Source: Radicibacter daui (GTDB taxonomy: Bacteria; Pseudomonadota; Alphaproteobacteria; Radicibacterales; Radicibacteraceae). From it: 64,000 bases of DNA. Shown piece after piece: positions 33,511 through 34,779 of this stretch. The notes beneath the pieces were generated by a model. It did no database searches and was not told the DNA's origin. It saw only the letters and a list, made by a program, of their open reading frames with translations. The stretch spans positions 699,001 through 763,000 of the forward strand of contig CP131056.1 of the NCBI GenBank assembly GCA_030657355.1, read 5' to 3'. The translations under genes were made by a program, and so were the position numbers. Numbering within the stretch: the stretch's first letter is position 1; the number at the start of each line of letters is the position of its first letter.

Positions 33511-34545
33511 TCACGCAAGCGTAAAGAGCCCGAGCCCTGACCGAACCCGGTCCAGCACTCCCTGCGTGCGCTCGCGCGCAGCCTCCGTGCCGGCCTTGAG
33601 CAGGCCCAGCACATAGGCCGGATCCCCGGCCAGCTGCCGCCGCCGTTCGCGGATGGGGCCGATCAGTTCCTGCAAAATACCGTCGATACGGTGTTTGAGC
33701 GACACGTCGCCAAGGCCGCCCTGCCGGTACTGCTCCTTGAGCGCGGCGACCGCGGCCTTGTCCGGGTCGAAGGCATCCAGATAGGTGAAGACCACATTGC
33801 CCTCCACCCGGCCCGGGTCACTCACCTTCAAATGTTGCGGGTCGGTGTACATGCGCTTTACCGCCTCGCTGATCTCTTCCGGGCTGGCGCCGAGGTGGAT
33901 GGCGTTACCCTGCGACTTGCTCATCTTCGCCTTGCCATCCACGCCCGGCAGGCGGCCCGCCTCGGGGATCAGCGCGGTTGCTTCCAAAAGCAGTTCCCGC
34001 CCGGCCTGATGGTTGATGCGGCGCACCACCTCGTTGGTCTGCTCGATAAGTGGGGCCTGATCCTCCCCTACCGGCACCAGCGTAGCGTCAAAGCCGGTGA
34101 TGTCGGCGGCCTGCGCCACGGGATAACAGAGAAAGCCGGCCGGAATATCGCGCCCGAAACCGCGCTGGGCGATCTCGTCCTTGATGGTCGGGTTGCGCTC
34201 CAGCCGGGCGACGGTGACGTAGTTAAGATAAAGCAGCGTCAGTTCGGCAAGCGCGGGCAGGCCGGATTGCAGGCAGATGGTCGTTTCGACCGGGTCGATA
34301 CCAACGGCGAGATAGTCGAGCGCCACTTCCAGCACATTGCGGCGCACCTTGTCCGGGTCGCGGGCATTGTCGGTCAGCGCCTGGGTGTCCGCCACCAGCA
34401 GAAACTGGCGATGGGTCTTTTGCAGCGCCACGCGGTTTCTTAGCGATCCGGCATAATGGCCGATATGCAGCGGTCCCGTCGGGCGGTCGCCGGTCAGGAT
34501 CACAGGTTTGACGGTTGCTGCGGGGGGCAGAAGGCTGTCGGGCAT
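33511..34545 (-). CDS. trpS: Tryptophanyl-tRNA synthetase, auxiliary/Firmicutes-like type
   Basis: A class I synthetase that charges tRNA-Trp. The 344-residue protein has the ATP-binding motif [15 protein letters not shown] (HIGH at 27-30) and KMSKS. The [13 protein letters not shown] form and the [13 protein letters not shown] block resemble TrpRS of streptococci and relatives rather than the GxQPTGxLHLGNY form usual in proteobacteria, so it may be an additional or horizontally acquired copy. ATG 34545 is preceded by GAAAGGA at 10 nt. A 16-codon Trp-rich leader ORF lies upstream on the same strand. The stop is 3 bp from that of the convergent LacI gene. Confidence 0.94.
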
Positions 34546-34682
34546 GGTTTGGGTTCCTTTCAGGGAAAGGCCGCCGTGCCGGACGAAGGATGCTTCTGGG
34601 ATCAATAGCCGCTGCCTGCCGGTATCACGGCGGCAACGGTCGATGTTTGAACAGGACGACGTGCCGCTCCTTAAAAGGAGCG
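34546..34682 (-). promoter_or_regulatory. Putative trpS attenuator RNA (segments 1-4 and Shine-Dalgarno hairpin)
   Basis: Minus-strand complementarities: segments 1:2 CGCTCC/GGAGCG (34677-34682 with 34665-34670); 2:3 GCGGCA/TGCCGC (34662-34667 with 34630-34635); 3:4 GCCGCCGTG/CACGGCGGC (34626-34634 with 34570-34578). Pairing 2:3 excludes both 1:2 and 3:4. A further hairpin CCTTTC-CCT-GAAAGG (34556-34570) covers the trpS ribosome binding site. No clear U run follows 3:4, so control could be translational rather than by termination. Confidence 0.6.
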
Positions 34683-34721
34683 CCACCAGCTAAAGCAGCA
34701 CAGGGTCGTCGTGGTCGTCAT
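34671..34721 (-). CDS. Candidate trpS leader peptide with tandem Trp codons
   Basis: A 16-codon ORF reading [16 protein letters not shown] and ending with TAA, located 125 nt upstream of trpS on the same strand. Two adjacent TGG codons sit directly before attenuator segment 1 (CGCTCC), so a ribosome stalled for lack of Trp-tRNA would cover that segment. The Trp pair is notable because tryptophan is the rarest residue. A weak point is the absence of a strong ribosome binding site before the ATG. Leader peptides with Trp runs are well known for trp operons, and a similar arrangement is known for an auxiliary indolmycin-resistant trpS of Streptomyces. Confidence 0.62.
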
Positions 34722-34736
34722 GGTGCTGCATGATGT

Positions 34737-34779
34737 GCCATGAGGGTTAGGGTGCTGGCAAGTACCCGGCCCTCATGGC
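34737..34779. repeat. Inverted repeat between gcdH and the trpS leader
   Basis: The perfect 10-bp repeat GCCATGAGGG / CCCTCATGGC has a 23-nt loop that itself contains GGGT/ACCC. It lies 10 bp after the gcdH stop and 16 nt before the leader ATG. It could end gcdH transcription or belong to the trpS leader. Confidence 0.55.

Follow-up and report, generated by a model that had tools for sequence, protein, structure and literature searches.

A probable tryptophan attenuator upstream of an auxiliary tryptophanyl-tRNA synthetase gene in Radicibacter daui

The auxiliary tryptophanyl-tRNA synthetase (TrpRS) gene of Radicibacter daui, trpS2, is probably controlled by a ribosome-mediated tryptophan attenuator, a reading to which we give a probability of roughly 0.8. 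The region examined was a window of 64,000 nt (CP131056.1, positions 699,001–763,000 of the forward strand), and all coordinates are window positions unless another locus is named. An earlier note on this DNA had suggested probable ribosome-mediated attenuation upstream of trpS, and the suggestion is supported by a conserved leader, conserved Trp codons, and covarying helices among relatives of the gene.

The auxiliary gene and its Trp-codon leader

The trpS2 gene lies on the minus strand (33511..34545) and encodes a 344-aa enzyme of the TrpRS II type, which passes the curated cut-off of the NCBIfam model TIGR00233 (225.4 vs 176.75 bits). The other TrpRS of the genome is approximately 30% identical to the trpS2 product, has a higher family score, and shows the usual alphaproteobacterial sequence. 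The trpS of the window is therefore the auxiliary copy, a point that the earlier note had overlooked. The best PDB match of the trpS2 product is TrpRS II of Deinococcus (1yi8/2a4m, 394 bits). Few relatives exceed about 65% identity; they occur in the gene's own genome and 5 others among 385 sampled genomes of the class. A nitric oxide synthase, considered as a partner of the TrpRS II-type gene, was searched for in the genome and is absent. No conserved neighbours of trpS2 were seen when flanking ORFs were read by eye at 10 loci, and no tRNA genes were found within the 64-kb window.

The leader peptide ORF, which had been read correctly from the sequence, comprises 16 codons on the trpS strand (34671..34721, minus strand, ATG at 34721) and carries tandem Trp codons, TGG TGG, at 34683..34688 as the putative sensor. 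Its stop codon is separated from the trpS ATG (34545) by 125 nt. The leader region folds more stably than dinucleotide shuffles (z −2.7), and shuffling the region upstream of trpS in the window yields a leader ORF with WW or WxW in 3.2% of cases. At this shuffle rate the single window sequence is weak evidence, and the case rests on conservation.

Eighty relatives of trpS2 were taken from genome contigs and more from whole genomes, and 85 genes were counted. Leaders were defined as ORFs with WW or WxW that end at least 30 nt before trpS. Such an ORF precedes 46/85 genes of the trpS2 type in alpha-, beta-, and gammaproteobacteria, compared with 3/56 for the remaining TrpRS genes in these genomes (of the three, one is a third auxiliary-type copy), 4/69 housekeeping trpS genes from other alphaproteobacterial genomes, and a shuffle background of 1.7–4.2%. 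The peptides vary freely outside WW, which is near the C-terminal end in most; examples come from Aeromonas (MNMTAFNHNYWWCCS), Ruegeria (MDNLMLLSTLWWLAPK), Chromobacterium (MKIAPAFAIRFWWWRLS), and Pseudoalteromonas luteoviolacea (MNILSNLRHITISWWRSY). The earlier note proposed to look in relatives for Trp codons and compensatory stem changes, and both were found. A third trpS copy in Bradyrhizobium valentinum (L127) has a nearly identical Trp leader, MTVVVITLANLWWRST. The housekeeping trpS of L271 has a TTG-started LLRSHPRWRGWWRA close upstream, which may be chance or a separate leader.

Genomes with two TrpRS have the leader in 43 cases and lack it in 14, vs 1 and 25 for genomes with a single TrpRS (Fisher p 2.8e-10), but when the tree is taken into account the association comes down to approximately five independent contrasts, of which 3.3 agree with it and 0.1 oppose it (median p 0.25). 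Within Cupriavidus, the leader occurs in C. basilensis, where both enzymes are present, and is missing from four relatives that have the trpS2-type enzyme alone. No leader precedes trpS2 in the two-TrpRS relatives Pandoraea, Noviherbaspirillum, and Salinarimonas, and some two-TrpRS relatives from Duganella and Undibacterium have a single Trp codon and no WW. In Vineibacter terrae (L010, ~522–660), the RNA structure before trpS2 is kept and the WW codons are lost.

A putative −35 box, TTGCCA (34756..34761, minus strand), which the earlier note had missed, lies 40 nt before the leader ATG and is conserved in relatives. The motif TTG[AC][ACG] is present at −41 to −34 from the leader ATG in 31/43 leaders (26 of them at −36/−35); the expectation in shuffles is 1.66, and 0/2000 shuffles reach the observed count. 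With a generic sigma-70 scan, no promoter was detected upstream of the leader in the window. Judging from the position of the box, transcription is predicted to start at the leader ATG or within approximately 5 nt before it. The leader mRNA would thus be leaderless, which would account for the missing ribosome-binding site of the leader. That absence had previously been listed as a weak point, and the predicted leaderless mRNA removes the worry. A transcription start downstream of 34671 had been named as an argument against the attenuator; the conserved −35 box instead predicts that the leader is in the mRNA. A 9-bp inverted repeat (CCATGAGGG/CCCTCATGG, 34778–34738) flanks the putative −35 box and may be an operator or, alternatively, the terminator of the acyl-CoA dehydrogenase gene that lies upstream.

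Alternative helices and their covariation

All the pairings claimed for the leader RNA can be found in the sequence of the minus strand. Segment 1 (CGCTCC, 34682–34677) pairs with GGAGCG (34670–34665) of segment 2 (GGAGCGGCA, 34662..34670), and GCGGCA of segment 2 (34667–34662) pairs with TGCCGC (34635–34630) of segment 3 (TGCCGCCGTG, 34626..34635). The 9-bp helix upstream of trpS joins GCCGCCGTG of segment 3 (34634–34626) to segment 5 (CACGGCGGC, 34578–34570; segment 4 of the earlier note), which adjoins the anti-Shine–Dalgarno (anti-SD) strand. Segment 2 possibly also pairs with segment 5 and the anti-SD. Finally, CCTTTC (34570–34565) pairs with GAAAGG (34561–34556) in the anti-SD:SD hairpin CCTTTC-CCT-GAAAGG (34556..34570), which covers the SD in the trpS ribosome-binding site. 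No U run follows the long 3:5 helix, as had been stated. What had been missed is a local hairpin of segment 3 with a further partner, 3b (approximately 34601..34644), which is found in the minimum-free-energy fold and likewise has no U run. The idea of mutually exclusive stems thus holds as far as the alternatives are concerned; segment 3 has an extra covarying local partner, and the step that blocks expression was not seen by folding.

Co-evolution of the helices other than 1:2 was tested in the window subgroup, alignment A1, for all members and for representatives. The 1:2 hairpin is predicted in 46/46 WW leaders. Over 23 representatives, its arms pair better with each other (−15.6 kcal/mol) than with swapped arms (−12.9 kcal/mol), a sign of co-evolution (P<1e-5). 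The leader stop is usually 12 or 15 nt from the first TGG, within the 1:2 loop, and comes later in 8/46. Covariation of 2:3 is weak because the pairing is nearly invariant: its GCGGC:GCCGC core hardly varies in A1, and the outer helix co-evolves with P=0.03 (all) and 0.09 (representatives). For the pairing of segment 2 with segment 5 and the anti-SD, P is 0.05/0.07. The anti-SD:SD hairpin co-evolves as well (P=0.015 for all, 0.026 for representatives).

Segment 3 has two covarying partners in A1, the local 3b (P<1e-4) and the distal segment 5. With two divergent relatives added, 94.5% of the 3:5 cells are paired and two-sided changes occur in 6 pairs, amounting to 20 cells vs 6.0 in shuffled data (0/500 shuffles reach this), and the duplex swap test gives P=2e-5. 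In most relatives, the invariant motifs GCCGCC and GGCGG served to anchor the 3:5 arms, which means that the variable positions were not selected for their fit. The arms of L013 and L081 were located by complementarity, and the result without these two (P=0.0006 for all, 0.006 for representatives) is therefore the stricter one.

In the mechanism that we propose, transcription would begin at the leader ATG. When Trp-tRNA is sufficient, the ribosome would reach the stop inside the 1:2 loop and cover segment 2, leaving segment 3 to pair with 3b or with segment 5, next to the SD, and trpS would be held off by the anti-SD:SD hairpin. Under a shortage of Trp-tRNA, the ribosome would stall at TGG TGG and cover segment 1. 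The freed segment 2 would then capture segment 3 (or perhaps, in the window, segment 5 together with the anti-SD), and trpS would be made. Many relatives would run the same switch through a real terminator.

Terminator or translation as the output step

Between the leader and trpS, 29/46 relatives have an intrinsic terminator, recognised as a GC hairpin with a T run behind it, including Rhodobacterales, one Bradyrhizobium, most betaproteobacteria, and Aeromonas; a few of these calls are marginal, such as L016 and L090, both in the window's alignment. No intrinsic terminator with a U run was found in the window or in most other members of its alignment. The local 3:3b hairpin of the window aligns in place with the terminator of other relatives, and the window form therefore resembles a tail-less terminator hairpin combined with a distal segment beside the SD. 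Distal pairing persists in weak form in some terminator-type relatives (P ~0.04–0.05).

When folding was constrained with segment 2 free vs masked, the SD of the window was unpaired at 0.75 vs 0.14, and a rise was also seen in L027; SD accessibility was not raised in most other relatives. Constrained folding thus gave no general opening of the SD, and the output step is inferred: control in the window's subgroup is most likely translational rather than by a terminator. A role of segment 2 as a decoy for the anti-SD is plausible in the window and L027; it shows no covariation and was set aside.

The strongest competing explanation retains the same sensing and lets the window's subgroup terminate transcription without a U run, for example by Rho, instead of masking the SD. 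Many relatives use transcription terminators, modelling gives no SD opening in most relatives, and an untranslated leader of ~125 nt could admit Rho, whereas the SD hairpin co-evolves and the distal segment abuts it in terminator-less relatives; we regard such termination as rather unlikely. It is very improbable that the copy in the window is a terminator-type attenuator that has decayed and lost its regulation. The window has no U run and Vineibacter lost its Trp codons while keeping the RNA, but the terminator-less form is common to about 12 lineages with compensatory changes, which argues that it is maintained. Action of the leader peptide or RNA in trans, with cis control secondary, would resemble peTrpL and rnTrpL of Sinorhizobium meliloti, where the peTrpL mRNA is leaderless too and encodes WWW (PMC7298713); this is hardly credible here, as the peptide varies freely outside WW, and what is conserved is the RNA in cis and its position ahead of trpS. 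Chance co-occurrence of an ORF and stems, for which the shuffle rate of the WW leader might speak, is refuted by conservation in all the comparative results.

Role of the enzyme and comparison with known systems

Under tryptophan attenuation, the trpS2 enzyme would probably be a backup for situations in which the housekeeping TrpRS is inhibited or overloaded. Since the arrangement recurs across Proteobacteria, the backup is probably switched on when charged tryptophan tRNA is short. The positions equivalent to F5, Q9, H43, and M129 of the Bacillus stearothermophilus enzyme are L, R, Q, and Q in 91/91 family sequences, vs F, Q, H, and M in 30/30 alphaproteobacterial housekeeping TrpRS. Indolmycin sensitivity has been linked to H43, and the H43N substitution confers resistance (PMC4899734). 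With the H43 equivalent lost, an inducible inhibitor-insensitive backup is a reasonable idea, and the auxiliary family may be insensitive to indolmycin. The same four residues are found in single-copy enzymes of the family (Acinetobacter, Cupriavidus); they are therefore a family trait and by themselves no sign of a resistance role. In P. luteoviolacea (L081:4084–6945), trpS2 lies beside apparent violacein genes, vioE, vioD, and vioC, identified by eye. The violacein pathway consumes tryptophan, and these neighbours suggest another role for trpS2, namely, supply under heavy tryptophan use.

A wider scenario can be offered tentatively, and we hold it to be rather less than an even bet. A leader-plus-trpS cassette may have spread across Proteobacteria as an inducible backup, in which an inhibitor-insensitive TrpRS is induced by failed Trp-tRNA charging. 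A branch that includes the window would have lost the terminator and act on translation via the long-range helix next to the ribosome-binding site, and the attenuator would have disappeared where the housekeeping TrpRS did, several Cupriavidus being examples.

Outside the training alignment, all covariance-model matches above 60 bits precede trpS, except one. This exception, in the betaproteobacterium L192 (1501–1637, plus strand, 69.8 bits, leader MNGTPVSIIVAQWWRFQ), precedes trpG-trpD and thus ties the element to tryptophan. A 32-codon ORF lies between this window-type attenuator and trpG. In L193 (1501–1642, plus strand), a single-Trp version (MTSNRSTRFKAYWRSFT, 45 bits) with a T run precedes an apparent GNAT acetyltransferase gene and is perhaps an orphan left after loss of trpS. 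Matches below ~35 bits away from trpS were counted as chance. The trpE of the window's genome was considered as a further target and has no WW leader upstream.

The Rfam family RF00513 (Trp_leader) has no match in the window at E<=5, and a Rhodobacterales relative, L017, scores 32.7 bits, under the gathering score of 41. No T-box or other described riboswitch in Rfam matches the window element; the only Rfam match obtained in the window, M23, was attributed to chance. A Guanidine-II riboswitch match above the gathering score occurs near the Silicibacter trpS2 locus (L017:5322–5275, minus strand). Our literature search found no description of the proteobacterial trpS2 element; priority is uncertain given the 2010 survey by Lopatovskaya of attenuation upstream of tRNA ligase genes, which may already predict trpS attenuators. 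The element would be a known mechanism in a place that is probably undescribed, together with a terminator-less form.

The findings suggest that control of a backup tRNA ligase by a codon-stalling switch, an arrangement documented to date for trpS of Streptomyces, occurs widely among Gram-negative bacteria. They also provide a natural series, in which one sensor drives either a transcription terminator or what is probably a block of translation, and in which the change of output is open to study. Moreover, they predict which Proteobacteria hold a ready-made inducible TrpRS that may escape inhibitors such as indolmycin.

Attenuators of auxiliary trpS genes have been predicted for Streptomyces avermitilis trpS2 (PMC1262725) and described for Streptomyces lividans trpL2 (PMC8079986). 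They share with the window the trpS gene, a Trp-codon leader, and alternative stems, and S. lividans trpL2 resembles it further in its leaderless leader, as predicted for the window, and in the lack of a U run; in contrast, they belong to another phylum, and trpL2 has a single Trp codon (MMTRTCTQLWRAA). TrpRS II of Deinococcus (1yi8, 2a4m) is likewise auxiliary and the closest structural homologue of the window enzyme, whereas its described partner, nitric oxide synthase, is missing from the window's genome. The earlier note named no precedent for alphaproteobacterial trpS, which is only partly right: in Caulobacter crescentus, likewise an alphaproteobacterium, ribosome profiling showed a small leader CDS on trpS mRNA (PMC4117421). 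The rhizobial trpL attenuator of trpE(G) in S. meliloti and Bradyrhizobium has a leaderless mRNA, as predicted here, and likewise tandem Trp codons near the stop, and the end of the Bradyrhizobium peptide, WWRTS, is close to the WWRST/WWRSF of trpS2 leaders (PMC7298713). Unlike rhizobial trpL, which governs biosynthesis through a terminator, the element of the window would work without one and control a tRNA ligase.
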